38,478 nucleotides of DNA. Origin: Afipia sp. GTDB taxonomy: Bacteria; Pseudomonadota; Alphaproteobacteria; Rhizobiales; Xanthobacteraceae. A program made the position numbers and the translations under genes. Under the pieces are notes generated by a model. It had not been told where the DNA came from. It saw only the letters and a list, made by a program, of their open reading frames with translations, and searched no databases. The DNA is taken from positions 1 through 38,478 of the forward strand of contig JAFVHU010000059.1 in the NCBI GenBank assembly GCA_017474385.1, given 5' to 3'. Positions 11,835 through 34,758 of this stretch are shown here, piece by piece (within the stretch, counting starts at the first letter, position 1; each line of letters begins with the position of its first letter).

Positions 11835-11873
11835 GCGGACGTGGCGGAATTGGTAGACGCAAGGGACTTAAAA
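11835..11873 (+). pseudogene. Host tRNA-Leu(UAA), 5' half cut off by the element
   Basis: The 39 bases hold the acceptor 5' strand GCGGACG, the D arm with GGTAGACGC, the anticodon 5' strand AGGGA and the loop CTTAAAA. The tRNA then stops abruptly: the next bases are AT-rich element DNA. The missing half, with the complementary anticodon strand TCCCT, variable arm, T arm and acceptor strand CGTCCGC plus ACCA, is at 34702-34758. Joined at the shared nine bases, they form a complete tRNA with seven acceptor and five anticodon pairs. The left piece should still be transcribed, but it cannot make a tRNA. Confidence 0.9.
11865..11873 (+). other. attL core (9 bp)
   Basis: GACTTAAAA, identical to 34702-34710. 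It covers one base of the anticodon stem, the UAA anticodon and most of the anticodon loop of tRNA-Leu. Crossover must lie within it. The nine bases are a maximum; the true overlap used by the integrase may be 7 or 8. Confidence 0.85.
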
Positions 11874-11963
11874 GCATATAAACATAAAAATTTACAATCA
11901 AAATTTACAAATAATATCAATATTATAAATCAGAAATTGACTTTCAAATCAGGCCGAAATATC

Positions 11964-12066
11964 CTTACACATACGTTACACAAAATGCACCTTTTTTCGG
12001 GTGTGCGCGACAGGAAGTCTGATCCGCTTCAACTCGTGCGAACTGTGTAAGGAAATGTGTAAGAGG
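11964..12066. promoter_or_regulatory. Left-end TTACACA/TGTGTAA repeats, likely integrase arm sites or int operator
   Basis: CTTACACATAC at 11964-11974 is repeated exactly at the right end (34635-34645). TTACAC recurs at about 11976. On the opposite strand, GTGTAAG occurs at 12045-12051 and 12057-12063, exactly 12 bases apart and immediately before the integrase start. Repeats at both element ends, with some in front of int, are the expected pattern for arm-type integrase binding sites that also control int expression. This is inferred from placement only. Confidence 0.5.
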
Positions 12067-12071
12067 CACAC

Positions 12072-13262
12072 ATGGCACATCACGAATTGATGGGAGGAAA
12101 ACTCCATCTCTACAAACGCGAAAACAGCCGTCATTGGCAGTGCTCGACCTATCTCGCGGGCCGTAACCGGCGCGTGACCACGAAAGAAGAAAGCCTCGAA
12201 CATGCGAAGGACTTCGCCGAGGATTGGTATCTAGAGCTAAAGGGCAAGCACCGAGCCGGTGAAGTCATGGGCGGCAAGAGCTTCAAGAAAGCCGCCGACC
12301 AATTCCGCCGCGAATACGAAATCATCACCGAAGGTCAGCGCAACCCTCAGTATGTCGAAGGGCACATGCGACGGCTCGACATTCACCTTCTTCCCTTCTT
12401 CGGCAAGAAGACCCTCTTGGAAATTACCCCCGGCCTCTTGCAGGAATACCGTATCCATCGGCGGGAGGAGACGGTAGCTGCGCGTGGCAAACCGCCCGCG
12501 CGCAACACAATGCACCAAGAGATCGTGACCTTACGTCAGGTATTGAAAACAGCCGCACGCCACGGCTGGATTCAGTACATTCCAGACCTTTCAGAGCCAT
12601 ACAAAACGAACGGAAAAATCTCTCATCGTGCGTGGTTCTCACCCGAAGAATACAAGAAGCTCTACACGGCCACACGGTTGCGGGCACAGAAGCCAAAACG
12701 CAAACGCTACGCGTGGCAAAGTGAACAGCTTCACGACTACGTCCTGTTCATGGTGAACACCGGCTTGCGTCCCGATGAAGTCGCACGACTGGAATATCGG
12801 GACGTGACTATCGTCGATGACGAGCCCACGAATGAGACGATCCTAGAAATCGAAGTACGCGGCAAGCGCGGCGTTGGATATTGCAAGAGCACGAACGGAG
12901 CCGTGCTTCCGTTTGAGCGATTGAAGAAGCGCAACAATCCGAAGCCGACCGACCGGATTTTTCCGAAGGGTCACCGCGAGCTGTTCAACGCCATCCTTGA
13001 TGAGGAAGAGCTCAAGTTTGACCGCGAAGGTAATCGGCGCACTGCGTACAGCCTACGGCACACCTACATCTGCCTTCGCTTGATGGAAGGCGCGGACATC
13101 TACCAGATTGCCAAGAATTGCCGCACCAGCGTTGAGATGATTGAGAAATATTACGCTTCACACATCAAAACCAGCCTTGATGCGGCTGCCATCAACATTC
13201 GCAGGCCAAGGCCAAGCACGAAAACCGTCAAGAAAACACCAAGGAAGCCTGCAAAAACCTAA
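12072..13262 (+). CDS. int: Tyrosine recombinase (phage-type integrase)
   Basis: A 396-aa protein. The N-terminal part is a small basic DNA-binding region (MAHHELMGGKLHLYKRENSR) followed by a core-binding helical domain. The catalytic domain has the first arginine in NTGLRPDEVARLEYRDV near 229-245, the LRHTY box near 328-332 and the nucleophile tyrosine in EKYYASHIK near 357-365. All expected catalytic elements are visible. AAGAGG lies before the ATG. It would catalyse insertion at the tRNA-Leu(UAA) anticodon loop and, with an excisionase not seen here, excision. It lies about 200 bases downstream of the broken tRNA half and in the same direction, so the host tRNA promoter may read into it. 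The intron-bearing tRNA follows 65 bases after its stop. Confidence 0.93.
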   Translation: MAHHELMGGKLHLYKRENSRHWQCSTYLAGRNRRVTTKEESLEHAKDFAEDWYLELKGKHRAGEVMGGKSFKKAADQFRREYEIITEGQRNPQYVEGHMRRLDIHLLPFFGKKTLLEITPGLLQEYRIHRREETVAARGKPPARNTMHQEIVTLRQVLKTAARHGWIQYIPDLSEPYKTNGKISHRAWFSPEEYKKLYTATRLRAQKPKRKRYAWQSEQLHDYVLFMVNTGLRPDEVARLEYRDVTIVDDEPTNETILEIEVRGKRGVGYCKSTNGAVLPFERLKKRNNPKPTDRIFPKGHRELFNAILDEEELKFDREGNRRTAYSLRHTYICLRLMEGADIYQIAKNCRTSVEMIEKYYASHIKTSLDAAAINIRRPRPSTKTVKKTPRKPAKT

Positions 13263-13327
13263 CTCCTTGCACCTGCATAAAAATTCCTTGGCTTGTCGTG
13301 CAGGCGACGCCTATAAATGTGGCGTAT

Positions 13328-13665
13328 GCGGACGTGGCGGAACTGGTAGACGCAACGGACTTGAACGGAAAAATTGAGTGCTCACGGGGAAACCCGAGAT
13401 GCAGAACTGCTCAAAATCGGGGAAACCTGTCAGATGGCAATCCCGAGCCAAGCGCGTTTGTCGAACGGCAAGCGCGAAGGTGTAGAGACTAGACGGGCAG
13501 CACCTAACGCAATCGCTTTACGGCGAACGCCACGGTGAAGGGATAGTCCAGACCACGAACTCGCCTCAGCACAAACGTGCAACGGCGAGGCGGCGAAAGC
13601 CGAAGCTGGTAAGAAAATCCGTTGGGGGTAACCCCGTGCCGGTTCGATTCCGGCCGCCCGCACCA
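13328..13665 (+). tRNA. tRNA-Leu(UAA) interrupted by a group I intron; element-borne replacement
   Basis: Exon 1 is 13328-13362 and exon 2 is 13614-13665. Spliced, they give a class II tRNA: D arm with GGTAGACGC, anticodon stem ACGGA/TCCGT with loop CTTAAAA (anticodon UAA), long variable arm GGGGTAACCCC, T arm GCCGG TTCGATT CCGGC, encoded ACCA. The acceptor stem GCGGACG/CGCCCGC has one mismatch, A5 against C68. Exon 1 is nearly the same as the host's split half, but exon 2 is clearly different. It follows the integrase on the same strand. The inferred job is to supply the leucine UUA-decoding tRNA that integration destroys. The intron lies between the first and second anticodon bases. Confidence 0.92.
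13363..13613 (+). ncRNA. Group I intron (tRNA-Leu type, IC3-like), 251 nt, no ORF
   Basis: The signs of a self-splicing ribozyme are direct. The internal guide GAGT at 13376-13379 pairs with exon ACTT to give a U.G wobble at the 5' splice site. A GAAA-capped hairpin CGGG/CCCG lies at 13385-13396. The core block CAATCCCGAGCCAAGC is at 13438-13453. AAGGTGTAGAGACTAGACGG at 13477-13496 supplies the G-binding region, with P7 formed by GACTA 13487-13491 and TAGTC 13544-13548. The intron ends in the required G at 13613. Its core resembles cyanobacterial and plastid tRNA-Leu(UAA) introns, which sit at the same anticodon position. It has no homing endonuclease gene, so it depends on its host gene for spread. 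Confidence 0.9.
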
Positions 13666-13704
13666 TATCGTCCCAAATACTCCTGCTTTCAATTGCGGTT
13701 ATCT

Positions 13705-15535
13705 ATGCACATCGCCCGCCTAAAAATTACTGGCTTTCGGGGCGTACGTTCAGCGGACATCCCCGCTCGGCCGCCATGTCGTGTTAGTCGGCCCGAATAA
13801 CAGCGGCAAGACCACCATCATCGAGACGCTGGCCTTGCTGTTCGGGCGCGACCGGTTGCTGCGCCGTCTCACCGAGCATGATTTTCATGGCAGCGCGCCA
13901 GACGAGCCCGCGCGCATTCTGTGCATCGCTATCTTGACGGGATTCACGCCCAACGACCCGCATCATCATTCGTCGTGGTTCAGTCCTGAACGGGGCGTTG
14001 AGAAATGGTTCGACCCCACCGCAAAGACTCTCCGCGCCGCGCCGGACGCGCAGCATACCGATCTGGCGGTGCAGATCGGCTTCGCCGCCCGGTTCGATCT
14101 TGACGAATTGGAAGCCGAGACGATCCGTTTTTTCGTGGACGACGAGGCTACGCTGGGCGATCCGTTCGGCGAGGATGCCCACCTTCGCACCATCCACACC
14201 AAGGTTCTCCAAGAGTTGGGATTCTTTCTGGTTCCGGCCTCGCGCACATGGGACCGCTGGATTTCTTTTTCTTCCGAGTTGTTCCGCCGCGTGGTGGCAA
14301 CGCGCGGAGACATGCCCGCACACGCTGTTCGCGCCGAGCGCGAACGCCTTTGGATGCCGCCCCAAGGTGAGCGGCTCGAAGACCAGCCGGGGCTTTCCGA
14401 GATCGTCGGCGCGGCCAATGACGAGTTGCGGGCGCTCATGGCCAGCGCCCCGAAACTCCAATTGCGCCTGACCGCGACCGACAGCGATTCCGTTCTGGAA
14501 AGCGTTGTACCGCACTTCGTGCAAGGCACGGGACCAACCCTTCCCTCGCAGCGGCAGGGCACGGGTCTTGTCTCGCTGCAAAGTCTTTTGCTGCTCATGC
14601 AGTTCGGCAAGGCCCGCGCGGAAACGGGTCAGTCTTTTGTGCTGGCCGTCGAAGAACCAGAACTACACATCCAGCCGTCCCAACAAAAGCGGCTGGTCAA
14701 CCGCCTCAATGCGCTGTGCAACCAGACCATTGTGACGACGCATTCACCTATCGTGGCCGCAATGTTTCCAGCGCCGGACACGCTTTTTATCGAAACACGC
14801 GAAGGCGTCCTGAACGCCAAGCCGTTGATGGACCCAGTGCCCGCGCAACCGACCAATCACCAGCAGCACTTGCTTTTTGCATGGCGGCAGAAGCTCGTCG
14901 CCGCGCTAATGCACGAATGCGTCCTGATCCCCGAAGGGGTTTCGGACGTGGCTTGGCTTGAGGCGCTGCAAACTGCTCTTGAGCTGCATCAAGGTTGGCA
15001 GGACGCCGGAGCGCCGCTCCTTTCCACCTTCGTAGGCGTCGTGCCGACCATTGACGCCAAGGTTGCTGATACGTTCGCGGTGGTCCGCGCCGTTCACGCG
15101 CGGCCTTGCATCCTCGTGGACGGGGACAATGACGGGCGCGCCTACTTCGATGCGGTGAAAACCATCAATCCGCCGCCGCGCTCTGTCGTGTTCTGGCCGC
15201 AAGGCTGGGCGATGGAGCATGTGGTTTCGTGGATTGTAGGCGCAGACGAAGCCGCAATGCTGGTCGCGTTAGGAACCGCGCGCGGTCAGACATTTGCCAA
15301 CGCGCAGGCACTCATCGCTTATTTGCTTGGACAGAAATCTTACGCGCCGACACATGAGAGCGCCGCCATCACGCTTATGGCCAGTGCGCCTTGCCGCACC
15401 CGAGCCGTACAGTTGCTCAATGCGATGTGCGTCGTGCTGCGCGACCCTGCGAACGCCAACACGCCGCTTTTCATACGTGTTGCGGCGGACTCGACCGCCG
15501 ATATGCATGTATTCCAGTTTGTACCGCCGCCATGA
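13705..15535 (+). pseudogene. Gabija GajA-like OLD nuclease, one +1 frameshift near the N-terminus
   Basis: The natural start is ATG 13705 (MHIARLKITGFRGVRSADIP). The run CCCC at 13761-13764 carries one base too many: removing it joins this reading to LGRHVVLVGPNNSGKTTIIE and gives about 609 aa, near the known GajA length. The ATPase part has Walker A GPNNSGKT (restored residue 29 on) and LAVEEPELHIQPSQQKRL with Walker B. The C-terminal TOPRIM domain has IPEGVSD near 408 and VDGDNDGRAYF near 470. As written, only a GTG at 13781 could start the long frame, and it would lose the first ATPase strand. The stop overlaps the helicase start by ATGA. In Gabija this protein is a DNA-nicking nuclease kept inactive by nucleotides until phage infection. 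Confidence 0.82.
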
Positions 15536-16893
15536 CATTCGATTTTTTTGAGGGCGCGGCTGGCACCGGAAAGACCCACAATCTTGTGGGTCGCGCCGGA
15601 GAGATCGTTCAGAATGGGATTTTAGGCGAAGGGCACAAGCTCTTGGCGCTTACCTTCATGAACGGTGCGCGCCGCCGTCTGGATGTACGCCTTGGCGAGA
15701 ACCCGGCGTTCCGTAGGCGCTTCGATTGCCAGACCTTCGATGTGTTCGCTAGGACTCTGGCCACGCGGCGCAGGAGCCTGATTACGCCCACGATGCAAGC
15801 ACAGGCCAACGCATTGAACGAATTTGACGGGCCGTGCGCTCTGGCGGCGGGCCTTCTGGAAAACGAAGCAGTTCGAAAATGGGTCGCCAGAAGTTTTCCG
15901 CTGATTTTGGTGGATGAAGCGCAAGACCTCGACGAATATCGACTTCGCATCCTTCAAGGCCTTTCGCTATCTTCAAGGATCGTAGCGGCAGCGGATGCCT
16001 TTCAGTGTCTTCAAAATGGGCGGGACACTGCGCCGCTGATGGGGTGGCTTGATGGGGCTGGGCAGACACATCGGCTCACGCTGGTTCGACGCACCAATCA
16101 GCGGGGTCTTATCGACGCCGCACTCGCCGTGCGCGAAGGGCGAGACATGAAGACGGTTCTCACAGCGCGGACTGCCCAGAACAGAACATCATGGAACGGC
16201 GTGGGCTTCCGGCTTCTGGATGCGCCCGCTACGCAGGCGAACACGGGACTTCTCGCTTGGGCAATTGCGAACGATATCTCGCAACGCCAAGGCCCTGTCG
16301 TCATTCTCACGCCCGATGCAGGCAATGCAATTATCCGGGCCGCGCTTAACACATTGCAGACGCGACAGTGGTCCCGGAACAACGGCGCGACCTTCGGGCC
16401 TTATCCGCATACTTGGGACCGTCACGACAATGAAGAAGCCAATGCCTTGCTGGCCGAAATCGCCTTGCCAGAGAATGCTTCATACGCCGACTTCTGTACG
16501 CTTCTGACGCCGCTGGCCGGACAAGCACCTATCGCGCAAGCACTCAGCCGAATGGACCGTTTGCGCCGCACACAGGGGCAAGCGGGATTTACTGCCGCGC
16601 AGGTGACGGAGTTTGTGCGGGAGTCCGTTCGCAACCGTGCGCGTCTGGGCCTCAGGCAGCAGCGCGGCCATCTTGCGATGACAATCCAGCGCGCCAAGAA
16701 TCGCGAATTTCCAAACGTCATTGTGCTTTGGCCACATACAGCGACGGGTAGCCCGGAGCATTTGCGCAGGTTGCTTTATAACGGCATCACCCGCGCGCAG
16801 AACCATTGCTCTGTCATTGTGCTGGGTCAGAATAGGCTAAGCGCGCCGCCTTTTGCGCCCGTTGCCGTCGCACAAGGAAGGCCTGCCGAGTAG
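15532..16893 (+). CDS. Gabija GajB-like UvrD/Rep-type helicase
   Basis: A 453-aa protein beginning MTFDFFEGAAGTGKTHNLVG, with Walker A GAAGTGKT at residues 8-15. Motif II is LILVDEAQDLDEYRL near 124-138 and motif VI is LYNGITRAQNHCSVIVLG near 414-431. It is shorter than full UvrD (about 720 aa), as expected for GajB (about 490 aa). The frame is open further upstream, but ATG 15532 overlaps the GajA stop by four bases and places Walker A where relatives have it. In Gabija the helicase-like protein forms a complex with GajA and is required for anti-phage action. It is intact, unlike its partner. Confidence 0.83.
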   Translation: MTFDFFEGAAGTGKTHNLVGRAGEIVQNGILGEGHKLLALTFMNGARRRLDVRLGENPAFRRRFDCQTFDVFARTLATRRRSLITPTMQAQANALNEFDGPCALAAGLLENEAVRKWVARSFPLILVDEAQDLDEYRLRILQGLSLSSRIVAAADAFQCLQNGRDTAPLMGWLDGAGQTHRLTLVRRTNQRGLIDAALAVREGRDMKTVLTARTAQNRTSWNGVGFRLLDAPATQANTGLLAWAIANDISQRQGPVVILTPDAGNAIIRAALNTLQTRQWSRNNGATFGPYPHTWDRHDNEEANALLAEIALPENASYADFCTLLTPLAGQAPIAQALSRMDRLRRTQGQAGFTAAQVTEFVRESVRNRARLGLRQQRGHLAMTIQRAKNREFPNVIVLWPHTATGSPEHLRRLLYNGITRAQNHCSVIVLGQNRLSAPPFAPVAVAQGRPAE

Positions 16894-16954
16894 GATGGGA
16901 ACTGTCCAGCCGTATTGTGGAAGCGGCTGGATAAGCACCGCTCCGTGAAGAGAA

Positions 16955-17821: not shown

Positions 17822-18719
17822 ATGAAGTCGGTAGTGAAGGCAGATGTCTATGAACGCATTACCAATCAGATTGTTGCGGAGTTGGAGAAAGGCGTTAGGC
17901 CTTGGCTCAAACCGTGGAACGTGCAGCACTCAGCGGGGCGCATCACGCGGCCCCTGCGCGGAAACGGGATTCCATATCGCGGCATCAATATCGTGATGCT
18001 GTGGTCGGAGGCGCTGGAGAAGGGTTACGCCGCGCCAATCTGGATGACCTTCAAGCAAGCGATTGAATTGAAAGCGTGTGTCCGCAAGGGTGAGAAGGGT
18101 AGCCTTGTCGTTTATGCCGACAAAATCACCCGCACCGAAATTGACGCCGTCACGGGGCGAGGAAAACGAATGCGCTATACCGCTCATCAAGGGCTATACG
18201 GTTTTCAATGTGGAGCAGATTGACGGATTGCCCGAACAATTTTACGGCAAGCCCGAGCCGCGCGTCGAACGGGCGGACTCATTCTTTGCCGCAACGGGCG
18301 CTGCTATTCGGCACGGCGGCAACATGGCCTTTTATGCCGCTGGCAGCGACCATGTGCAGATGCCGCCTTTCGAGACATTCCGCGATGCCGAAAGCTATTA
18401 CGCAACCCTCGCCCATGAAATGACGCACTGGACGAAACACACATCGTGCCTCAATCGCGATTTTGGCCGTAAGCGATTTGGCGATGAAGGGTACGCGATG
18501 GAAAAACTTGTCGCCGAACTCGGCTCAGCGTTTCTGTCCGCTGACCTCGATCTCACGCCGGAGTCTCGCGCCGACCATGCGCCTTACGTTGCGTCATGGT
18601 TGAATGTATTGAAGAACGACAAGCGTGCCATCTTCACCGCAGCATCCCACGCGCAGCGTGCGGTTGTTTTTCTGCATGGCTTCCAAAACGCCGGGTCTGT
18701 TCGGGCGGACGCGGCGTAA
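17822..18719 (+). pseudogene. ArdC-like antirestriction/zincin protein, one +1 frameshift
   Basis: The first frame begins MKSVVKADVYERITNQIVAE after a GGAGAAG site and gives the N-terminal ssDNA-binding domain of the ArdC (DUF1738) family. At GGGG 18154-18157 one extra G shifts the frame. Removing it restores DAVTGEENECAIPLIKGYTV and continues through YYATLAHEMTHWTKH, whose HEMTH motif (near restored residue 198) is the metallopeptidase zinc site, to a stop at 18717-18719. Full length would be about 298 aa. ArdC proteins protect incoming conjugative DNA from restriction. As written, the product would end after the N-terminal domain at about 18223. Sequencing error is possible. Confidence 0.85.
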
Positions 18720-20344: not shown

Positions 20345-20435
20345 TTAAGATTGTGAGGGCGCACTTATGGGTTTGTTTCAAACCCGTGCAGCCAGAGCCG
20401 CCAATGGGCGGTAACGGAGCCGGAACGTAATCCGG
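20345..20435 (-). other. oriT: Origin of transfer, MOBQ (RSF1010-like) type
   Basis: Read on the minus strand, the hairpin GGGTTTG-AAA-CAAACCC (complement of 20369-20385) is followed by ATAAGTGCGCCCTCACA. The core TAAGTGCGCCCT (20356-20367) is, as I know it, the RSF1010-family nick region, which also follows directly after an inverted repeat. Two further small hairpins, CCGCC/GGCGG at 20398-20411 and CCGGA/TCCGG at 20420-20435, lie between it and the relaxase start. The location directly upstream of a MOBQ relaxase fits exactly. The nick position itself is inferred by likeness. Confidence 0.8.
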
Positions 20436-20458
20436 TGCCTCGCAGCAAGGGAGACGCC

Positions 20459-21424
20459 GTGGCGATCTTCAGTCTCAATCATAGCACGGTGGGACGGACG
20501 ACTCACGCCCCTCGCACCGCCAGCGCCAATGCCCGCTACATCACCCGTGAGGAGGCCTGCACGCAGGTGCTTGGGAGCCGGATGCCGACCGAACGGGATG
20601 AGCTGTATGCGTGGCTCGTCGGTCAGGAGGACAAGGACCGGAAAAACGCCCGCGTCATCGACAAGGTGATGGTGGCCTTACCCCGTGAATTGACCCATGC
20701 CCAGAATGCAGAATTGGTCACCGAGTTCGCGGAAGGCCTGACCAAGGGGCGGGCTTCGTGGGTGGCAGGCATCCATGACGGGATCGGGGATGCCGACAAT
20801 CCTCATGCCCATATCATCCTTCGGGACCGCGATTTTGAGACCGGCAAACGGGTCATGGAATTGTCCGAAAAGGGCAGCACCGAACGCATCCGCATCGCGT
20901 GGGAAGAGCGGGTCAATACCGCCCTTGTACGGGCCGGGTTTGAGGTCCGGGTGGACCGCCGCACGCTGGAAGCGCAAGGGCTCAAACGGGAGGCCGAAAT
21001 CCACGTCGGACAGGCTGCCCGTCAGCTCACCGAACGCGGCGAACGGCCCGACAGCACCCCGCGTGAAGTGGGGCGGATTGTCGATGGCGGGCTGAAGCCG
21101 ATTGTCATCGACTATCCCTCCATCGATGGCGGCAAAACCCGCCATGAAGCGAATGACGAAATCAAGGAACGCAATCGGTATCGCGCACTCGGGAGCGAAC
21201 AACCTGAACTGGATTGGACCGACCGCGCCGGATTGGTCGCGCAGGAACGCGCGGCGAATGAGTGGGTAAGAAAAGCGCAGGAGCAACAAGCCAGCACGTC
21301 AATGCGTGACCGTCAGATTGGCGGTGCGCCGAACCGATGGCGGCGAGAAATGTCGGACGATGCAAGCAAGCTGCGCGCTGAAATGGACCGCGAACAGAAA
21401 AGCGGACCTGAATTGGAGCGATAA
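20459..21424 (+). CDS. MobA/MobL-type relaxase (MOBQ)
   Basis: A 321-aa protein. The GTG at 20459 is chosen because it gives the family N-terminus (AIFSLNHSTVGRTTHAP), with an AAGGGAG site just upstream; the frame is open back to 20435. Motif I tyrosine is in NARYITREEA near residue 23, and the metal-binding histidine triad region is HDGIGDADNPHAHIIL at residues 106-121. Relaxases cut one strand at oriT and carry it to the recipient. It lacks the helicase or primase domain of long MobA and TraA proteins, so it is a minimal relaxase. Its last 30 residues, with RWRREMSDDASKLRAEM, match the C-terminus of the protein at 22235-22954. Confidence 0.9.
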   Translation: MAIFSLNHSTVGRTTHAPRTASANARYITREEACTQVLGSRMPTERDELYAWLVGQEDKDRKNARVIDKVMVALPRELTHAQNAELVTEFAEGLTKGRASWVAGIHDGIGDADNPHAHIILRDRDFETGKRVMELSEKGSTERIRIAWEERVNTALVRAGFEVRVDRRTLEAQGLKREAEIHVGQAARQLTERGERPDSTPREVGRIVDGGLKPIVIDYPSIDGGKTRHEANDEIKERNRYRALGSEQPELDWTDRAGLVAQERAANEWVRKAQEQQASTSMRDRQIGGAPNRWRREMSDDASKLRAEMDREQKSGPELER

Positions 21425-22969: not shown

Positions 22970-25378
22970 TTGACGACATTTGGCAGTGCGCGCGTTGCCG
23001 CTCATCAAGAGCTGTTGCTCGCAGGATTAATCCGCCGCGACAATCTTTCGGATCACGAGACCGAAGGGTTGATGATCGGCTCCGTTTTCAATGGCCGCGA
23101 AGAGCATTTTCTTCGCTACAAAGGACAGCTTCATCAGCTCATTATTGGTGGCACGGGCGGCGGCAAATTCGTATCGGCCCTTGGCCCGCTACTTCTTGTG
23201 CCGCAATCCATCCAGAATTGTGCCCTCATCATTGACCCCAAGGGTGAAATCGCCCGCGCATTGGGGCCGACGTACCAACGCGCTTTCGATGGCACGCAGC
23301 AAGTCTTGCTGCTTGATCCGTGGGATGACACGGGCGCTGCAAAGCAGTTTGGTTCGACGCTCAATTTCTTTGACGGCTTGACCGAAGACAATCCGCGCCT
23401 TGTCGATGATGCGCGGGTTCTGGCCGATGCGATGATTGTCCCGACGGGCGGCGCAGACAGCGCCCATTGGGATACGACCGGCCGCAATTTTTTGATGGCG
23501 CTTATTCTGTTTGTTGCGCTTGACCGCGAAGAGAAGAAGACCCGTACCATCTTTCGCTTGCGTGAACTCATTACGCAGCGACAGGACAAGTGGAAAGACT
23601 TTCTCGCCTTCCTTTCCGACAGCCCGCTGGCAGACGGAACGGTGCGGCGTGGCGTGAACGGCTTGATAGGCCGCAGCGATAACGAGCGCGCAGGCATCAT
23701 CAGTACTATTGAGCGCGACACGGCATGGCTGGAAAGCCCTCAGATGCGCGACATCACGTCAAGTCGCCGTAGCCTCGATCTGCCCTCGCTCGCCGTTGGA
23801 ACGGCGCGCATTCACGTGGTGATCCCGCCTGAATACTTCATGACACAGAAATCGTGGCTCCGGCTAATCGTTGCCACGTTCTCCAATGCGTTCAAGCGCT
23901 ACCGCGTCAAGGACGGAAGCGGAGAATATCAGCGCCGCCGCCACATCATCATCGATGAGTTCACCAATCTGGGTGAGATGTCATTTGTCTATAACGACAT
24001 TACCGTGGCGCGTGGCTATGACATTCAGTATCACCTCGCGACGCAGGATTTTACCCAGCTTCGCGGGGTCTATGGTGAGAAGTGGGAAACCTTCATCAAC
24101 GCGACCTTCATCCGCGCCTTCGCGCTGAACGATAATTTCACCACCAAGTACCTCTCGGAAATGAGTGGCACCGCGACTGTGCAGAACAAATCGTTCAGCA
24201 GTAGCAACGCCAAAAGTGAGAGTAAGGCGTTCAATGAAAGCACGGCGCATAATACGGGCAGCTCATCGAACCAGCAGGGATCGTCATCCAATTCCGGTAC
24301 AACATATACGTCTGGTACGACTGACACCTTTGGTGTGACCCAGACGGAAGGCGAGACGACGGCCTATATTGGCCGCCCAGTGATGTTCGCCGATGAAATC
24401 CGCCGCCTTCGGGACAACGAGCAGATCATTTTCTTTCGCGGGCTCCCGCTTGTGTACGCGCAGCGTCGACATTTCGCGACCTATACGAAATCGCTGCCAC
24501 ACTTCAGCCTGCCCGATATTCTCGGCACCATTGGGCGCGAGCCACGCGATAACAGCGAACGCGAAACGTTTGAGTGGCAATATGAAGGAATACCGCTTGC
24601 GTTGGCTCCGCCACCGCCGCAGCCACGGGCACTTCCTCCCCCCGAGCCTGTCGTTGTACCAAAGCCGACCTATAGGATTCACCAACTCGTCTTGGCTTGC
24701 GTTGCCGTATTGCTTCTCGGTTTCTGGCTTTGGCCGTCATCGCCGCCGCCCAAAGTGGCTGAAGTGATACACCCACCCGTCGCGCCGGTTTATGTGCCGC
24801 CACCAGTGCCCGCTGGCCCGCCAAAGATACCGCGCCCTGAATTTGTCAGAGGGCCGAACCGGCTTGGGGAAGGCGAGCACATGCAGAAATATCAGCCGGA
24901 ATGGTGCGACCGCTACAAATCCTATATCCGTGCTCACATGAACTATTGCACGGATACCAAGGCAGAGCTTGAAGTGCCGCTCATGAACCATCTCATCTAT
25001 TATGCTGAGAGATACTGTGCGATCCCGGTTAATGCATTCAATGAGGATCGTACCCCGACGCTCCCACTGGTCACGAAATGGCGTTCTGAGAATGACGCGC
25101 TGATCCGAAGTCTCAATGAGCTTGGACTGAATATGATGAGTGACCGATGGATTGATAAGGACGGCAACAGGCAGTCGCTTCCAAGGAAGAAAGACTTTCC
25201 CGTAAAGCAGTATGCGGACGAGATGTTCGAGTTGATCGTGAAGATCATCGACAATCCCTATCTCAACGATTCCTTCGCGTCGCTCGCTTCCATCAGCATC
25301 CGGAATATGTATGCGAAGGGCTGCCCATTTAATTCGATCCCACCCGAGCAATACGTGCCGCCAACGGAGCGTTTTTGA
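22970..25378 (+). CDS. VirD4/TraG-type coupling protein with a mid-protein membrane segment and extra C-terminal domain
   Basis: An 802-aa reading. The ATPase domain has Walker A GGTGGGKF (60-67; Phe replaces the usual Ser, Thr or Gly), LIIDPKGEIA near 89 and Walker B HIIIDEFTNLGEM near 324-336, plus LATQDFTQLRGVYG near 350. A Ser/Thr/Asn-rich low-complexity stretch runs from about 403 to 455. Unusually, no membrane helix precedes the ATPase; one lies at about 571-589 (LVLACVAVLLLGFWLW), followed by a Pro-rich linker and a domain of about 170 residues with Cys-containing YKSYIRAHMNYC. The start is uncertain: TTG 22970 fits the frame, while ATG 22951 overlaps the previous stop (ATGA) but is in another frame. 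It would hand the relaxosome to a helper channel. Confidence 0.85.
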   Translation: MTTFGSARVAAHQELLLAGLIRRDNLSDHETEGLMIGSVFNGREEHFLRYKGQLHQLIIGGTGGGKFVSALGPLLLVPQSIQNCALIIDPKGEIARALGPTYQRAFDGTQQVLLLDPWDDTGAAKQFGSTLNFFDGLTEDNPRLVDDARVLADAMIVPTGGADSAHWDTTGRNFLMALILFVALDREEKKTRTIFRLRELITQRQDKWKDFLAFLSDSPLADGTVRRGVNGLIGRSDNERAGIISTIERDTAWLESPQMRDITSSRRSLDLPSLAVGTARIHVVIPPEYFMTQKSWLRLIVATFSNAFKRYRVKDGSGEYQRRRHIIIDEFTNLGEMSFVYNDITVARGYDIQYHLATQDFTQLRGVYGEKWETFINATFIRAFALNDNFTTKYLSEMSGTATVQNKSFSSSNAKSESKAFNESTAHNTGSSSNQQGSSSNSGTTYTSGTTDTFGVTQTEGETTAYIGRPVMFADEIRRLRDNEQIIFFRGLPLVYAQRRHFATYTKSLPHFSLPDILGTIGREPRDNSERETFEWQYEGIPLALAPPPPQPRALPPPEPVVVPKPTYRIHQLVLACVAVLLLGFWLWPSSPPPKVAEVIHPPVAPVYVPPPVPAGPPKIPRPEFVRGPNRLGEGEHMQKYQPEWCDRYKSYIRAHMNYCTDTKAELEVPLMNHLIYYAERYCAIPVNAFNEDRTPTLPLVTKWRSENDALIRSLNELGLNMMSDRWIDKDGNRQSLPRKKDFPVKQYADEMFELIVKIIDNPYLNDSFASLASISIRNMYAKGCPFNSIPPEQYVPPTERF

Positions 25379-27436: not shown

Positions 27437-27484
27437 CCATCCACTCGCTATAATCAAGCACTAATGGAAAGATATTATTTAGCT

Positions 27485-27504
27485 AACCAGAGATTTATCT
27501 GGTT
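27485..27504. terminator. Possible bidirectional terminator hairpin
   Basis: AACCAGA 27485-27491 pairs with TCTGGTT 27498-27504, loop GATTTA. It lies between convergent genes and overlaps the last codons of the minus-strand gene. No strong T-tract on the plus side; AT-rich bases follow on the minus side. Confidence 0.4.
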
Positions 27505-28662: not shown

Positions 28663-28710
28663 TTTTATTGCCAATGTGTAGCGTATTAGGTTTGCACAGA
28701 TAGTAGGATC

Positions 28711-29655
28711 ATGAATGAAGTAGTTAGCATTGCGGCACCTGTATTTTTTATCATCGCACTTGGATACGCATGTGCCAAGCGGCGGGTGTTGGGTACCGAG
28801 GTGCAAAAATCATTTAGCCTGTACGTCTTTTATTTCAGTATGCCGTGCTATCTCTTTCTGAATATGGCGCGCAGTCAGAAAACAGAGATGATGCCGTTCA
28901 GCTATATTGCGGCATTCGCATTGGCGATGGTTGTGACTGCTGCTGTTGCCGGTCTTTGCATGCAGAAATTCGCGCGCCGAGACTTTGCCAGCACCGTGCT
29001 GGGTATGATGAGCGCGAGCTACACCAATTCTGTGTTCATCGGCGTCCCAATTATCGTGATGGCTTATGGAAGCATCGCGCCAGTCGTTGTCGTCACGCTA
29101 TTTCAGATCATCATCGCTACAACAGCGATACTCGCTAGCATAGAAATTGTTCGGCAGAAGCGTTGCATGTCGTGGCGGCAACTTGGTGAGATTCCAAAAG
29201 TTGTACTTCTCAACCCAATCATCGGCGGCTCGTTGCTGGGGATTGTATTTTCGATAAACGAGTGGCCAGTGCCGTTGCCGATTGAACGTATCTGCCAATT
29301 GCTCGGCAGCGCTGGTGTGCCGACCGCTCTGTTTGCTCTCGGCCTGTCATTGGGTGGTGAGCAGCTTCCTGCAACACCAAGCAGCCGCCGTTTGATCTGC
29401 GTGCTCGTCGGACTAAAGATTTTCCTTCATCCTGCATTGGCATGGCTGTTGGGCCGCTACATTTTTGATCTGGCTGGCCCTTCTTTAGGTGCGTTGACCA
29501 TCATCGCGGGGATGCCTACGGCCATGAACAATTTTACGTTTGCGCAGCGTTATGGCGTGTTTGTTCAGGAATCGGGGCGGGTGGTGTTCCTCTCCACAGT
29601 CCTTTGGCTTTTGACGCTGCCAGTGCTGCTGCTCATGTTCAAAATTGGGGCCTGA
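28711..29655 (+). CDS. AEC-family (auxin efflux carrier-like) transporter
   Basis: A 314-aa protein with about ten membrane segments. It starts MNEVVSIAAPVFFIIALGYA and has the repeat-half landmark SASYTNSVFIGVPIIVMAYG near 102-121, with the Asn and Pro kinks typical of the family; the second half contains GVPTALFALGLSLGG near 203 and AGMPTAMNNFTFAQRYG near 265. Members export organic or amino acids (for example malate or malonate carriers); the substrate is unknown here. AGGATC precedes the ATG. It is cargo inside the element, next to a probable asparagine synthase remnant. Confidence 0.88.
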   Translation: MNEVVSIAAPVFFIIALGYACAKRRVLGTEVQKSFSLYVFYFSMPCYLFLNMARSQKTEMMPFSYIAAFALAMVVTAAVAGLCMQKFARRDFASTVLGMMSASYTNSVFIGVPIIVMAYGSIAPVVVVTLFQIIIATTAILASIEIVRQKRCMSWRQLGEIPKVVLLNPIIGGSLLGIVFSINEWPVPLPIERICQLLGSAGVPTALFALGLSLGGEQLPATPSSRRLICVLVGLKIFLHPALAWLLGRYIFDLAGPSLGALTIIAGMPTAMNNFTFAQRYGVFVQESGRVVFLSTVLWLLTLPVLLLMFKIGA

Positions 29656-29772
29656 TGTAGCCACAAGTGGGTTATGTTGGTTTATAAATATTCATATTTG
29701 CTAAGAAAGACTTAGTTTTTCAGGAATATTTCAAACTAGTGTTTGGTTTGAGAATATGCAAGGATGCGTAGC

Positions 29773-30627
29773 ATGACTACGCAAAAACCTAATAAACTAA
29801 ACTGGCTGGAGCAGCACCTTCCCGAGGGGCTTGTGGTAGATTCCGCGTGGCTCACGAAGCACGGTTATTCAACGTCGCTGCGAAGCCAGTATGTGAAGTC
29901 TGGCAGACTTGAGCAGCCGACGCGTCAACTCTATTGGCGCAATCCACGCGGCCCCTTGACATGGCAGCAAGTGGTTATCTCGTTGCAGACCATCCTGAGT
30001 TGCCCGGTTGTCGTGGGAGGAAGGACGGCTCTCGAACTCCAAGGCTATGCTCACTACCTGCCGCAAAAAACCAAAAAAGAGGTGCATCTCTATGGTGGCG
30101 AGAAATTGCCTGCATGGTTGCAACGCCTTTCGCTCGGCGTGGCATTTGTCGTTCACAACGATCAACGCCTTTTTGCCAATGCGCCGATAACGCGAGCGCT
30201 TACCAGCTTGTCATGGAACGTCGAGAAAAATTCAGGACGCGACGTAAGCTCATTCAGAGGGGGGGGCATCGAGCAACCCTACGGTCAATGGGATTGGCCG
30301 CTAACGCTTGCAACGCCCGAGCGCGCCGTTCTTCAATTGCTGGATGAGCTGCCGCATCACGAGAGCTTTCATCAAGTGGATATGCTTTTTTCAGGGCTTG
30401 CGAGCCTCAGCCCGGAACGGCTAAAAAAATTGCTTCAGGATTGCCGAAGCGTGAAGGTCAAGCGCCTGTTCTTTTTCTTTGCCGAGCGTCATCAGCATGC
30501 TTGGTTCAAACGGCTTAACCGGAATCAGGTGAACTTTGGAACCGGCAAGCGCATGTTGGTCAAAGGTGGCCGACTAGACCCCGCAACGCAAATCACCGTG
30601 CCGGAGGACTTGGATGGCGTTCAGTGA
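29773..30627 (+). CDS. abiEi: AbiEi-family type IV antitoxin
   Basis: About 284 aa from ATG 29773 (MTTQKPNKLNWLEQHLPEGL), chosen because AAGGA sits eight bases upstream; ATG 29764 is possible. The N-terminal winged helix has SAWLTKHGYSTSLRSQYVKS near 23-42, and the C-terminal domain contains YGQWDWPLTLATPERAVLQL and KVKRLFFFFAERHQHAWFKR. AbiEi represses its own operon and counters the AbiEii nucleotidyltransferase toxin. The gene contains an eight-G run at 30259-30266 (Arg-Gly-Gly-Gly) which keeps frame as written. Its stop overlaps the toxin start region, but the toxin is broken, so this is an orphan antitoxin. Confidence 0.9.
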   Translation: MTTQKPNKLNWLEQHLPEGLVVDSAWLTKHGYSTSLRSQYVKSGRLEQPTRQLYWRNPRGPLTWQQVVISLQTILSCPVVVGGRTALELQGYAHYLPQKTKKEVHLYGGEKLPAWLQRLSLGVAFVVHNDQRLFANAPITRALTSLSWNVEKNSGRDVSSFRGGGIEQPYGQWDWPLTLATPERAVLQLLDELPHHESFHQVDMLFSGLASLSPERLKKLLQDCRSVKVKRLFFFFAERHQHAWFKRLNRNQVNFGTGKRMLVKGGRLDPATQITVPEDLDGVQ

Positions 30628-30973
30628 CATCTACCGCAAGTAGGTCAGCTTGCTTGTTCGCACGCTGCCGCACGTTGCAGAAGAGCCGTGCTTTGCGGGC
30701 ATGACGGATGAACCCGTATCCCTCGACGAACTTTCAGCAGCACGCGAAGCGCTTATTACAGGCATGGTCGGCAAGATGCCTGACGCGCATCGACGCTTTC
30801 TTGTTTCGTTTGAAAAGGGCCAGCCGGACTGGGAACTTCTTGGCGTCCCTACGGCGGCGGACTTACCGGCAGTGAAATGGCGTCAGCAGAATCTCGATAC
30901 GCTCAGCAAGGCTCAGCGAGCCACGCTGGTTGAAAATCTTGAGCGCGTGCTTTCTGATGTGGTGCGAGAGTAG
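30614..30973 (+). pseudogene. abiEii: AbiEii toxin gene, nonsense codon and large internal deletion
   Basis: ATG 30614 reads MAFSDIYRK and then TAG at 30641, where relatives have glutamine. The frame continues VSLLVRTLPHVAEEPCFA and then jumps straight to the C-terminal segment GMTDEPVSLDELSAAREALI through AVKWRQQNLDTLSKAQRATL to the stop at 30971-30973. The nucleotidyltransferase active-site part, which should follow CFA, is missing here. A piece of exactly that part is at 31668-31748. The remaining reading could not make a working toxin. Confidence 0.85.
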
Positions 30974-31040
30974 CCTTTGCGAGTCCGGAATTATTGGTTA
31001 GCATGGCGTGCCTGCGCGGCCTTGCCACGTAGTCGGTGTC

Positions 31041-31176
31041 GGCACATTGCAAACGGGCGTACTCATCACGACGCTCGTGCAGCGCTGGCTAGGTCATTCG
31101 TGCCTGAGCGCCGCAACAATTTATGCCGATGCAAGCGAGCCGGAGGAAGTCGCGTTTGCCAAGAAATACCGGGGGG
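31041..31176 (+). pseudogene. Tyrosine recombinase C-terminal fragment
   Basis: The reading GVLITTLVQRWLGHSCLSAA followed by TIYADASEPEEVAFAKKY has the VQRWLGH box and active-site-tyrosine TIYAD of XerC/D-like integrases. All upstream catalytic residues are absent. It ends in a run of nine G at 31171-31179. It appears to be a relic of another mobile element, perhaps left from the event that damaged the AbiEii gene. Confidence 0.75.
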
Positions 31177-31238
31177 GGGTACTGAGATACAATCAGGCCA
31201 ACGCCGCCGGCCTTCTGTGCCACTTTCCAAAGAGAGGA

Positions 31239-31529
31239 ATGATGATGAGATCAATTTTGGGATTATTTGCTGCTACGATGTTGGTTACGCTGGGACTTAA
31301 TGCAAGCCCAGCTCAATCAAGAGACGCTGGTGCGTTTCAGGTTGCCGCAGGCAGTTGTTCGGGCACCTATGCTACATGCGTGGCGCGGTGCCGCAGGGAC
31401 AATCCGCAAGATCGAGCCTGTCCCTCGGATCACTGCGCGCCCAAGCTTGCAACGTGCAAGACAAGCGGTTGCTGGCAGGAAGGGCAGCGCTACGGCGGGA
31501 AATTGACCTGCAATTTGCAGCGTGGATGA
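31239..31529 (+). CDS. Small secreted cysteine-rich protein
   Basis: A 96-aa reading starting MMMRSILGLFAATMLVTLGL with a signal peptide cleaved probably after SPAQS. Mature part contains eight cysteines (GSCSGTYATCVARCRRD, RACPSDHCAPKLATCKTSGC and TCNLQRG), suggesting disulphide bonding outside the cytoplasm. An AGAGAGG ribosome site precedes three ATG codons in a row. The frame is the same as that of the integrase fragment upstream, but it has its own start signals. Function unknown. Confidence 0.68.
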   Translation: MMMRSILGLFAATMLVTLGLNASPAQSRDAGAFQVAAGSCSGTYATCVARCRRDNPQDRACPSDHCAPKLATCKTSGCWQEGQRYGGKLTCNLQRG

Positions 31530-31667
31530 CCTTCTAGCAACTTCAAAAGTACGAAAGCGGGTTGAAGCGGATTGCAGCGAACTATCGCTGCATAGATGTG
31601 TTTGCAACCAACAAGATTTACGGCTCGTCGAATGGGAGACCTTAGTCCTGCGTCTAAACGAGGGGTT

Positions 31668-31748
31668 GTCCTCAAAGGCGGAACGGCGATCAATCTTTTT
31701 ATCCGCGATATGCCGCGCCTGTCGGTTGATATTGATCTGACCTATCTA
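31668..31748 (+). pseudogene. Displaced AbiEii active-site fragment
   Basis: The reading VLKGGTAINLFIRDMPRLSV followed by DIDLTYL contains the GG-T and DxDLTY nucleotidyltransferase elements of AbiEii. This is the segment that would directly follow CFA in the broken toxin gene at 30614-30973, about 950 bases away. Similarity to AbiEii ends at both sides. It is too short to be functional. It could be a piece moved from the upstream copy or the remnant of a second copy. Confidence 0.8.
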
Positions 31749-32026
31749 CGCGCTCGCGTTCGCTGCTTTGTTTGGCATTTGGCGAGCGTCTTGATTGAGA
31801 AATCGCGTGTCGGCCATTGGGTCGCCTTGAGCACCACATCGAAATAAAGATCGACAGCCTGCGCTGGGTCAAACAGGGTTTCGATGTCTTCCGCTGAGCA
31901 AACATCGGGGTATTTGCGCTGGAGCTTTCGGTAAATCGTCCGCTCGTATTTTGAATAGTAGTAGATGGCACATGGGTGGTCGCTTCGCTTTGTGCGGGAA
32001 AGACCAATTTGTTGCATCACGCCCAC
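31742..32026 (-). pseudogene. Fragment of a TM0106-family RecB-like nuclease
   Basis: The minus-strand reading includes AIYYYSKYERTIYRKLQRKY, then PDVCSAEDIETLFDPAQAVD and LYFDVVLKATQWPTRDFSIK. This pattern belongs to the RecB-like putative nuclease family often called TM0106. Full proteins are 400-700 aa or longer; only about 85 residues remain, with the following sequence replaced at KTLAK. It is a truncated relic. It directly abuts the displaced AbiEii fragment, so a recombination junction lies near 31745. Confidence 0.65.
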
Positions 32027-32277
32027 GCTGCAACCAGACCGGCTCCTGACGGGCGTGGCGGCTGACTTTGAGCTAAAATGCAGCTATGATTGCCACAATG
32101 GCTCAAGTCATTGAAATATAAGCAATTTGGGAAGCTTTGGTTTCCTAGTGATTCGTTATTGTCTGTGTGGTAATCTGTAGCTTCCTATTGCACGATTGAA
32201 TTCATTATAAGAAGGCATAAATGAGCAATTGGCAGGAAAAACGAGTGAATTTGAGGTTGTAGAAGTAGGAGTTGAGC
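32027..32277. other. Gap before the HipA gene
   Basis: No gene seen. AT-rich from about 32085. The HipA ribosome site TAGGAG lies at its end, and the promoter should be within the final 150 bases. Confidence 0.45.
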
Positions 32278-33444
32278 ATGGATGTGAGGGCTGCCGAGGT
32301 ACTTTTCAAGGATTCCCTTGCAGGAACTCTGGTAGAAACCGCCAGTGGCGGCACGCGCTTTACTTATGCCGTTGACTGGAAGCAGCCTATTGCCTGCTGC
32401 CTGCCCGTAGAGCGCCGCGAGCATGAATGGGCGCAGGGTCTACATCCGTTCTTTCAGCATCTTGGTCCCGAAGGATGGCTTCGCCAGCGGCAGGCGCGAG
32501 TTGCACATATCGCAGAGGAGGACGATTTCGGATTGCTGCTGCGCTACGGCGCGGACTGCATTGGCGCGGTTGGCGTGAGGAGCGCCGTACCGCTTCCCAA
32601 CATTGAACCGATTGCGGAGGCACCGGCAAATCCCGGACGTACCATCTCTGGCGTTCAACGAAAGCTGCTGGTGGTTAAGGACGGCGACACATTTCGCTCG
32701 GCTGACCCTACAGGCCTTGCCCCTTACATTGCCAAATTCAATCCCGAAGACATTCCCACGCTCGTGCGCAACGAAACGCTGAGCCTGTGCTGGATTTCCG
32801 CCGTGCTTGGTAAGAGTGAAGTGACCGCCTTCGATCTTGGGCAAGTCGCCGATGTAAATGAGCACGCGCTTATCGTCACGCGCTTTGACCGAACGGCGGA
32901 CGGCAAGAAGTTACGCCTTGAAGACTTCGCACAAATTCTCTGCAAACCGCGCGGTCAGGATTACACTGGAAAATACGGCGCTGGCCATGAAGATGTCGCC
33001 GAGGTCATCAGGGCCCATTCCTCCCGCCCTGAAATCGACTTGGACAAGTTCTTCCGCCGATTGATTGTTTTTGCGTTGGTCGGAAACTGCGATGGTCACT
33101 TGAAGAATTTCTCGCTGCTGGAGACCGCGACGGGTCTTCGCCTTGCGCCGCTATACGATGTCGTCAATACGGCTTTTTATCCCGTGTACGACCAGAACCT
33201 CGCACTGCTTATCGACGGCAAGCGCGTGCAGCTTGACGCAGTGACAAAGCCGCTGTTGGAAAAATTTGGACGCAGCATCGGCCTGCCGGAGCGGGCGGTC
33301 GAGCAGGCCTTCAAGGATTTGCAGCGCACCGCTCAACGCGCTGCATCACATTTAATTCCGCCGCGCGGGGAGCAACCAGACGGCTTTGTTCATCGGTACG
33401 CCGAGATTGTGAGTGGAGCATGTCTCCGAATTCTAGGGGAATAA
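32278..33444 (+). CDS. HipA-family serine/threonine kinase toxin
   Basis: A 388-aa protein from ATG 32278 (MDVRAAEVLFKDSLAGTLVE), chosen for its TAGGAG site. The N-subdomain (residues 1-105) includes HPFFQHLGPEGWLRQRQARV. The kinase core has SGVQRKLLV at 124-132 (ATP loop), VTRFDRTADGKKLRLEDFAQ near 199-218, the catalytic GNCDGHLKNF at 269-278 and the metal-binding LAPLYDVVNT near 288. HipA kinases phosphorylate targets such as glutamyl-tRNA synthetase to stop growth. All key motifs look intact. The HTH partner follows with 25 bases of overlap, the reverse of the usual antitoxin-first order. Confidence 0.88.
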   Translation: MDVRAAEVLFKDSLAGTLVETASGGTRFTYAVDWKQPIACCLPVERREHEWAQGLHPFFQHLGPEGWLRQRQARVAHIAEEDDFGLLLRYGADCIGAVGVRSAVPLPNIEPIAEAPANPGRTISGVQRKLLVVKDGDTFRSADPTGLAPYIAKFNPEDIPTLVRNETLSLCWISAVLGKSEVTAFDLGQVADVNEHALIVTRFDRTADGKKLRLEDFAQILCKPRGQDYTGKYGAGHEDVAEVIRAHSSRPEIDLDKFFRRLIVFALVGNCDGHLKNFSLLETATGLRLAPLYDVVNTAFYPVYDQNLALLIDGKRVQLDAVTKPLLEKFGRSIGLPERAVEQAFKDLQRTAQRAASHLIPPRGEQPDGFVHRYAEIVSGACLRILGE

Positions 33445-34442
33445 CGCCGCTCAACTGGCGCGCGCTGGTCGCGGAGGCACTTCGCCGCCGCAAAGCAGAG
33501 AAGATTACCCAGCGCCAACATGCGGCGCTAGCAAGCGTGAGTATTCCAACCATTGTCGCGTTTGACCGTGGCGAGCGCACGCTTTCGCTTGCCAAGGCTT
33601 TCGATATTTTGCGCGTCGTGGGATTGTTCGAGGAACCCACTGAAGACGGTGCGCAAGAAGTCTTCGTACAGGAGGCCTTTGCGCGCTGGGGCAAATTGAC
33701 GGCGAAGCTGCCGGAAGACTCTCCGGGCCGTTTCCCGGATGGTTGGTATCGCATTGACTACGCGCTTGAAGGCGATCTCAAAGATATTGAACTGCACAAG
33801 CTGCAAGCAATCTTGGCGCAGGCCGAGCTTCGCCTAACTGGATGGCCAACCTTCTTGGTTCCAACGCGCGCAGAACTCGCACCGCGAGAGGTTGATGGCG
33901 TATTGGAATGTTGGCTCGCACCGGGAGACAGCGGCATCGATCGTGCACTCTATGATGCTGCCCATTGTGATTTTTGGCGAGCGGCACCGACGGGCCGGAT
34001 GTTCCTTATCCGTGGCTATCAGGAAGACTCGCAGGAGACGTTTGCACCCGGAAAAATTTTCGATACCGGATTGCCCATCTGGCGTTTGGGCGAAGCGCTG
34101 TTGCACGCCGCGCACCTCGCAACGCTGCTGAAGCGTGAAGAAAGCAGCGAGATCACCGTAAAATTCCGTGTGCTATATACAGGCCTTACGGGACGTGTTC
34201 TGAAAGCATGGGCTAATCCACTTGCTGACCTTCTTATTGAAGGTGGAGCCGCGCGTAGCGACGAGGTTATGCTTGAAACCATAGTGACCGCATCCGCTAT
34301 CGAGAAAGACTTGGTAGCGGTCGTATTTCCGTTGGTTGCCTCGCTCTATGAGCGCTTTGGCGTTAGCGAGCTTTCCCTTGACCGCGTGCGGGCTGAAGCC
34401 CAGCACTTGCAGAAAAGCAGAATTCCACGTCACGATCGCTGA
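33420..34442 (+). CDS. XRE-type HTH protein with large C-terminal domain, probable HipA partner
   Basis: A 340-aa protein starting MSPNSRGITPLNWRALVAEA. The HTH (residues 22-70) reads KAEKITQRQHAALASVSIPT continuing into IVAFDRGERTLSLAKAFDIL, a clear Cro/CI-like fold. About 270 residues follow with no family I can name: WYRIDYALEGDLKDIELHKL, FWRAAPTGRMFLIRGYQEDS and KFRVLYTGLTGRVLKAWANP. Ordinary HipB antitoxins are about 90 aa and lack this part. Its start overlaps the kinase gene by 25 bases, so expression is linked. It may bind the operon DNA through the HTH and the kinase or another ligand through the rest. Confidence 0.8.
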   Translation: MSPNSRGITPLNWRALVAEALRRRKAEKITQRQHAALASVSIPTIVAFDRGERTLSLAKAFDILRVVGLFEEPTEDGAQEVFVQEAFARWGKLTAKLPEDSPGRFPDGWYRIDYALEGDLKDIELHKLQAILAQAELRLTGWPTFLVPTRAELAPREVDGVLECWLAPGDSGIDRALYDAAHCDFWRAAPTGRMFLIRGYQEDSQETFAPGKIFDTGLPIWRLGEALLHAAHLATLLKREESSEITVKFRVLYTGLTGRVLKAWANPLADLLIEGGAARSDEVMLETIVTASAIEKDLVAVVFPLVASLYERFGVSELSLDRVRAEAQHLQKSRIPRHDR

Positions 34443-34701
34443 ACCGTTTGGTAAGACGTAGTAGGTGAGACTGTGTTCGAAACAGGCACGGAGGCGGCGT
34501 TGTTTTGCTGTTTTGTAGCGCTATCTAAGCCGCATCTGATTTCTTCTGGAAAAAAGTCCTAAATATCGCTAGAAGCCCAGATGGGCGAATGGTTCGCTCA
34601 AAAGGGCAAAAAACGGGGAATTTTTACACAGTCTCTTACACATACACTTTTTGAAAACTGAATTATCAAGTTGTTTCAATAAGATATAGTATGTATGGTA
34701 A
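34443..34701. promoter_or_regulatory. Right-end region with TTACACA repeats, likely integrase arm sites
   Basis: No gene. TTACACA occurs at 34624-34630 and 34637-34643, 13 bases apart, and CTTACACATAC at 34635-34645 is an exact copy of the left-end sequence. The DNA is AT-rich up to the core at 34702. It does not contain any 5' part of a tRNA, so the right junction cannot restore the split gene. Confidence 0.5.
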
Positions 34702-34758
34702 GACTTAAAATCCCTCGATGGCAACGTCGTGCGGGTTCGATTCCCGCCGTCCGCACCA
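34702..34758 (+). pseudogene. Host tRNA-Leu(UAA), 3' half, with attR core at its start
   Basis: The first nine bases are the core GACTTAAAA (34702-34710), followed by TCCCT (anticodon 3' strand), the variable arm CGATGGCAACGTCG, the T arm GCGGG TTCGATT CCCGC and acceptor strand CGTCCGC with ACCA. It pairs fully with the half at 11835-11873. No promoter is apparent before it. A tRNA 3' half by itself would be non-functional. Confidence 0.9.

Follow-up and report, generated by a model that had tools for sequence, protein, structure and literature searches.

The window analyzed here, an entire contig of 38,478 bp from a metagenome-assembled genome (MAG; 84% complete, 162 contigs) of Afipia sp., carries an island of ~22.8 kb that splits the host tRNA-Leu(UAA) gene in its anticodon loop and leaves no functional tRNA gene at either junction, and a complete, intron-bearing tRNA-Leu(UAA) gene lies beside the island's integrase gene. 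We consider it probable that this is a mobilizable integrative island that follows a "cut and complement" strategy, in which a group I intron masks the replacement tRNA gene. In most of the integrase family, the replacement matches the split target in its anticodon, the intron keeps both its position and its structure, and in most genomes tested the replacement is the only UAA tRNA found.

Results

Split host gene and empty sites

Both halves of the host gene lie on the forward strand. The 5' half (attL, 11835–11873), which is the only uninterrupted UAA D-arm/loop match in the MAG, closes in the 9-bp core GACTTAAAA (11865–11873), and the 3' half follows a second copy of this core (attR, 34702–34758; core at 34702–34710), with a spacing of 22,837 bp between the two core starts. 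When the halves are joined, ARAGORN calls an 87-nt tRNA-Leu(taa). With its intron option off, ARAGORN detects no tRNA in the window and neither junction is therefore a tRNA; the attachment site lies within a tRNA gene, as in conventional tRNA-targeting islands, and the letters past the attL core are not tRNA, so that no attP fragment restores the gene there. The sequence-only reading of this DNA had proposed that the gene was cut in the anticodon loop into halves 22.8 kb apart sharing a 9-bp core, and that neither junction was functional; the joined halves, the intact gene of congeners, and the empty ARAGORN result bear this out.

Three congeners (G064, G069, and G074) possess an intact tRNA-Leu(UAA) with identical letters adjoining the same left flank as in the window, which argues that the split gene is not a chance resemblance, and two more (G051 and G063) have the same tRNA near the same flank in the opposite orientation. 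Both window flanks are present in G064, the left at 91.5% over 2,637 bp and the right at 81.8% over 752 bp. In agreement with the earlier reading, these five empty-site congeners do not already carry the intron-bearing tRNA elsewhere, as no intron motif was found anywhere in them. Related islands occupy the same gene in G068 and G054, with halves ~36 and 39.5 kb apart and right flanks matching that of the window at 78 and 76%, respectively, and the same arrangement occurs in Breoghania and Edaphobacter, with both halves on a single contig, 31.6 and 33.2 kb apart. In the congener G065, the same gene is split into halves 34.6 kb apart by an island unrelated to that of the window, with an intron-bearing UAA tRNA beside attL (L242, L250, and L281; G065:C1, 555,5xx to 590,183); its integrase differs (PF00589 plus an Arm-DNA-bind_3 domain) and is sited beside attR, so the strategy is not tied to one integrase. 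The intact UAA gene in the genome of L072 was considered as another empty site and rejected, since agreement with attL upstream of its D-arm motif stops after 22 bases. Separately, window positions 34759–35742, ~1 kb to the right of attR, have no match in G064, which matches the DNA beyond; G068 and G054 likewise match only from about there, and the segment may be a further small insertion.

The integrase gene (12072–13262, forward strand; 396 amino acids) is at one end of the island, ~200 bp past attL. It is of the tyrosine type, with a weak match to Pfam Phage_int_SAM_5 (23.4 bits, cut-off 22.3) that is supported by relatives annotated as integrases, and its residues Arg-233, Arg-329, His-330, and Tyr-361, which we take to be catalytic, are near-invariant across the family. 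The enzyme would use the GACTTAAAA core for recombination. Between core and integrase, TTACACA-type repeats read by eye (11964–11982, forward strand) recur in similar form in relatives and are possible left-arm binding sites. Right-arm repeats TTTTTACACAG/CTTACACATACAC (34621–34647, forward strand) have counterparts that precede the core in five relatives (L039, L045, L048, L059, and L060), which thus resemble attP junctions of tandem or circular copies; no terminal overlap was found in L048, so circularity has no support there.

Replacement tRNA and its intron

The complete tRNA-Leu(UAA) of the element (13328–13665, forward strand) begins 65 bp past the integrase stop codon, where the sequence-only reading had placed it, and is seen by ARAGORN only with the intron option. 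It consists of a 5' exon ending in U34 (13328–13362), an intron of 251 nt ending in G (13363–13613), and a 3' exon that encodes CCA (13614–13665). The element and host tRNAs are identical at 75 of 87 positions, and the replacement is therefore not a recent copy of the host gene. Rfam model RF00028 matches 13353–13566 with 50 bits, just at its gathering score, and also exceeds threshold in four (L041, L067, L104, and L111) of six further intron loci tried, the other two (L082 and L084) falling below it. All 45 parsed UAA copies have the intron between U34 and A35, with lengths of 202–271 nt. Two CAA copies (L067 and L237) have it one base earlier, between U33 and C34, which preserves a terminal U in the 5' exon. 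When the 45 introns are aligned, 97.0% of cells are paired and 28 of 65 pairs show compensatory changes, as scored on a structure derived from this same alignment. An exon-terminal U and an intron-terminal G are found in 47/47 parsed copies, both having been required by the parse, and the invariant intron columns, on our own reading, would fit a U·G pair at the 5' splice site (P1). The covariance-model match, the exon boundaries, and the conserved structure identify this as a predicted group I intron, and the tRNA precursor is expected to be spliced. L048 is the sole intronless UAA replacement in the set, and its stem is also altered. A further intron-motif locus (L249, G068:C5) has Shedu- and ApeA-like defence genes on either side, and its genome contains four intron motifs.

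A family of islands with matched replacements

A scan of genome contigs gave 255 relatives of the integrase, of which the best 80, from Pseudomonadota, Acidobacteriota, Planctomycetota, Verrucomicrobiota, and Binatota, were kept and sorted by eye and pattern. A UAA attL half was assigned to 40, a CAA half to 25, and a core without a clear half to 10; three are of the conventional type, with a whole tRNA of another kind kept before the integrase (L049, Met; L075, Arg; L097, Phe), and two remain unsorted (L056, and L090, where the contig begins at the integrase and an intron tRNA is present). L085 begins inside the half. In L034, the 5' tRNA half ~130 bp before the integrase is visibly decayed, as expected because a dead half is free of selection.

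The locus also contains an intron-bearing tRNA-Leu gene in 36 of the 40 UAA targets. It is a fully parsed UAA tRNA in 31 and partly visible in five more, by the intron motif in L033 and L063, by a 5' exon followed by the contig end in L036 and L091, and with masked bases at the anticodon in L093. The replacement is usually found 28–196 bp past the integrase; in L111, the intron tRNA is 4.8 kb from it, on the other strand. The contigs of L086 and L108 end before the replacement region can be judged, and L110 shows no replacement in the locus sequence examined and has one intron motif on another contig of its genome.

CAA targets are accompanied by a CAA tRNA on the same contig in 16/25: directly past the integrase in 10 intronless cases and in L067, where it bears the intron, and farther along the contig in L076, L078, L079, L087, and L096. 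We dropped an argument that Acidobacteria with CAA targets could lack a replacement because tRNA-Leu(UAA) also reads UUG, since longer stretches revealed the CAA tRNA of these five, near the right end. The CAA tRNA is on another contig only in L070, L077, and L081, and none was found in the sequence examined for L065, L068, L069, and L083. L100 (G192:C148) has an intact CAA tRNA ~26 kb from attL on the same contig, with the core unchanged; here the right end may have restored the gene from the 5' side. Among loci with a core but no clear half, L034, L047, and L048 pair a UAA core with a UAA tRNA, and L039, L045, L059, and L060 pair a CAA core with a CAA tRNA. L054 and L094, from a Planctomycete and a member of the Verrucomicrobia, have a tRNA-Leu(UAG) past the integrase and an inverted core that, by eye, would fit the UAG loop, although their target halves were not found. 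The family thus has UAA, CAA, and probably UAG variants. On a quickly built integrase tree, in which many branches are weak and L099 is scored as UAA, we count at least 14 changes of anticodon class and nine of intron state. A search of viral contigs gave one weak match, and a search of phages gave none.

Some relatives of the integrase may point to a conventional origin. Four plasmid relatives (CP041206, NZ_AP018829, NZ_AP029026, and NZ_CP017076) share 48–62% identity over at least 95% of the length; ahead of the integrase, three of the four show no more of a tRNA than a 3' part, which is non-Leu (by eye, resembling Lys or Met), and ARAGORN found no complete tRNA near any of them. Within the family, L109, L110, and L111 retain a short tRNA-like 3' remnant past the core. 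The L111 junction scores 41.7 bits with the Rfam tRNA model, with no ARAGORN call and an acceptor stem unpaired by eye. These remnants would fit descent from a fragment-carrying form.

Probable sole decoder of UUA

The tRNA-Leu anticodons found in the MAG are CAA, CAG, GAG, and UAG. In keeping with the sequence-only reading, we detected no further intact UAA gene in this assembly, which is 84% complete, and UUA decoding in this genome probably falls to the replacement alone. All seven isolates with a UAA target (L041, L082, L084, L098, L104, L110, and L111) have exactly one intron motif and no intact UAA gene that we could find; their uninterrupted UAA D-arm matches are attL only, joined in two isolates by an attR half that draws no tRNA call from ARAGORN. 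We further compared 121 host relatives: of the 12 genomes with the intron motif, one has an intact UAA gene, versus 78 of the 109 that lack the motif (p = 3e-5), the exception being G151, which carries the CAA-type intron tRNA L237; within the genus, the counts are 0/4 versus 21/25. Such absences are not proof, because the search patterns would miss unusual tRNAs. The replacement may well be essential to its host.

Proposed masking of the core

The 11-base core GA[C/T]T[C/T]AAAATC is present in the spliced exons of 47/47 parsed intron copies, a count half imposed by the parse, which demanded A31, and in the gene DNA of 0/47. The core is altered in 14 of 23 intronless replacements versus 2 of 33 host genes (p = 1e-5); counting duplicates once gives 9/14 versus 2/21 (p = 0.002), and other sortings give p values of 7e-6 to 8e-5, the lineages in all these counts not being independent. 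This pattern suggests that the intron hides the replacement from the island's own integrase. The anticodon loop is one of three crossover sub-sites in tRNA genes named in the Islander account (PMC4383910).

Cargo

The remaining genes discussed here are all on the forward strand. Next to the replacement tRNA is a Gabija-like pair (13781–16893), comprising a GajA-like gene (13781–15535) and a GajB-like gene (15391–16893), with best PADLOC values of 2.9e-37 and 1.2e-14 and Pfam domains AAA_15 and UvrD. These are followed by genes for a zincin-like metallopeptidase (18078–18719; Pfam MPTase-PolyVal), a MobA/MobL relaxase (20435–21424), a type IV coupling protein (22970–25378), a membrane transport protein (28711–29655; Mem_trans), an AbiEi antitoxin homologue (29764–30627), and a HipA homologue (32272–33444). 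By its relaxase and coupling protein, the island is predicted to be mobilizable, and its gene content is of a defence type. TTA codons are present in 8 of 12 island open reading frames (ORFs) and in two of nine flanking ORFs counted.

Discussion

We propose that the island integrase uses the anticodon loop of the host tRNA-Leu(UAA) gene as its recombination site and thereby splits the gene; no matching 3' fragment is carried, and the whole tRNA-Leu(UAA) beside the integrase would take over UUA decoding. The intron, between U34 and A35, falls midway within the presumed crossover loop; the replacement DNA would thus offer no integration site, and the spliced RNA would be a normal tRNA. In conventional relatives, the 3' part carried would have to fit the 5' half of the host gene, whereas an element with a whole tRNA would need a match in the core only; as this core is short and nearly universal, the module could settle in several phyla. 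As long as the island remains inserted, the host could not do without the replacement. More broadly, we lean slightly towards the idea that integrase and intron-masked whole tRNA form a horizontally spread module that lets islands destroy a probably essential tRNA gene across many phyla, with the intron providing self-immunity against the module's own integrase. The placement of the intron in the presumed crossover loop, the whole family of variants, and the fragment-restoring strategy kept by related integrases go beyond the sequence-only reading.

The arrangement shares features with several known systems. With islands of the Islander type, it shares a tyrosine-type integrase at one end, a tRNA gene as target, and a site in the anticodon loop; in these, as the Islander account describes them (PMC4383910), the island attP holds a tRNA gene fragment so that integration restores the gene, whereas the present element leaves both junctions broken and brings a complete tRNA. 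Haloarchaeal islands, where they are described in PMC3119063, are of the usual kind. An idea of Randau and Soll, as reported in PMC4390854, holds that disruption shields tRNA genes against mobile elements, and the interruption considered here would similarly hide an integration site, but in that account archaeal host genes are guarded, whereas here the element would guard its own replacement tRNA. Bacterial group I introns have been reviewed (PMC3984707). In a limited search of the open-licence literature, we found no description of this arrangement.

Tycheposons are tRNA-associated integrative elements with tyrosine recombinases. Group I introns are known in cyanobacterial tRNA-Leu genes, and Vepritskiy et al. 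reportedly found one in 2002 in the tRNA-Leu of a gammaproteobacterium. The intron described here resembles these in its location in the anticodon loop of tRNA-Leu(UAA) and in its RF00028 match; it differs in its setting, integrative islands on which the adjacent integrase has this very loop as its target, and in its two CAA copies at U33|C34.

Several observations weigh against our reading, and some of them favor a different one, namely a genuine cut-and-complement arrangement whose replacement descends from a tRNA-Leu lineage that already had the intron, the intron being a passenger and its position in the att core coincidental. Introns of cyanobacterial tRNA-Leu(UAA) genes are found at this same place. 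Intron-bearing tRNA-Leu genes also exist without this integrase nearby (L235, L237, L238, L239, L244, and L245), some of them beside ordinary genes; these are possibly domesticated replacements. Nine of the 23 intronless replacements keep the core and live unmasked, and masking is therefore not universal; on the other hand, an altered core is far commoner in intronless replacements than in host genes, and the altered stem of the sole intronless UAA replacement also argues against a passenger. Five motif loci (L033, L063, L093, L099, and L249) were not parsed, three of which show GACTT by eye. L099 is a CAA target with a UAA intron tRNA past the integrase; its CAA tRNA is on a separate contig. 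In L101 and L085, a UAA core is accompanied by no replacement in the sequence examined, and their genomes contain an intact UAA gene. Finally, another intact UAA gene is present, on another contig, in 8 of the 40 UAA-target genomes, all of them MAGs (those of L033, L050, L053, L072, L101, L105, L106, and L108); the one in the L106 genome is AT-rich and plastid-like. Taking these points together, we regard a passenger intron as a serious but less probable explanation than self-masking.

The sequence-only reading had further suggested a tRNA-based addiction, whereby the death of hosts that lose the island would select for the arrangement. Part of this stands, in that imprecise loss of the island or deletion of its tRNA should be lethal, most carriers showed no UAA gene other than the intron tRNA, and five genomes in which we detected no intact UAA gene (G109, G126, G138, G163, and G166) retain, without the integrase, intron tRNAs that may be domesticated remnants. 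The joined halves, however, equal the gene of congeners, so that precise excision would rebuild the host tRNA and orderly loss would be harmless; the island would therefore not be a classical addiction module, a toxin-like lag cannot be seen here, and we consider selection by addiction unlikely. It is more improbable still that the tRNA is cargo for translating island genes, as in many phages, with an incidental link to the target. TTG, CTT, and CTA are indeed used more by the island than by the nine flanking ORFs, but TTA use is nearly equal (2.1 versus 1.7 per thousand), throughout the family the anticodon tracks that of the target (UAA or CAA), and the gene keeps its usual place close behind the integrase. 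The window being one contig of an incomplete MAG, the split or intron-bearing tRNA might be thought to come from a chimeric assembly; this is contradicted by the same arrangement in Breoghania, Edaphobacter, and the congeners G054 and G068, whose right flanks match that of the window, and we give it hardly any credence.

The usual rule is that an island brings the missing piece and the gene stays whole; this family breaks the gene and brings a spare. Such islands would escape searches that look for a tRNA plus a tRNA fragment, and in this window no UAA tRNA is reported by a tRNA finder run without the intron option. If our reading is true, fragment restoration would be joined by a second solution for living in tRNA genes, and a bacterial group I intron would have a useful role. 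It offers a testable reason why a bacterial tRNA gene keeps a group I intron, and a reason why one type of integrase could use the same site in unrelated phyla.

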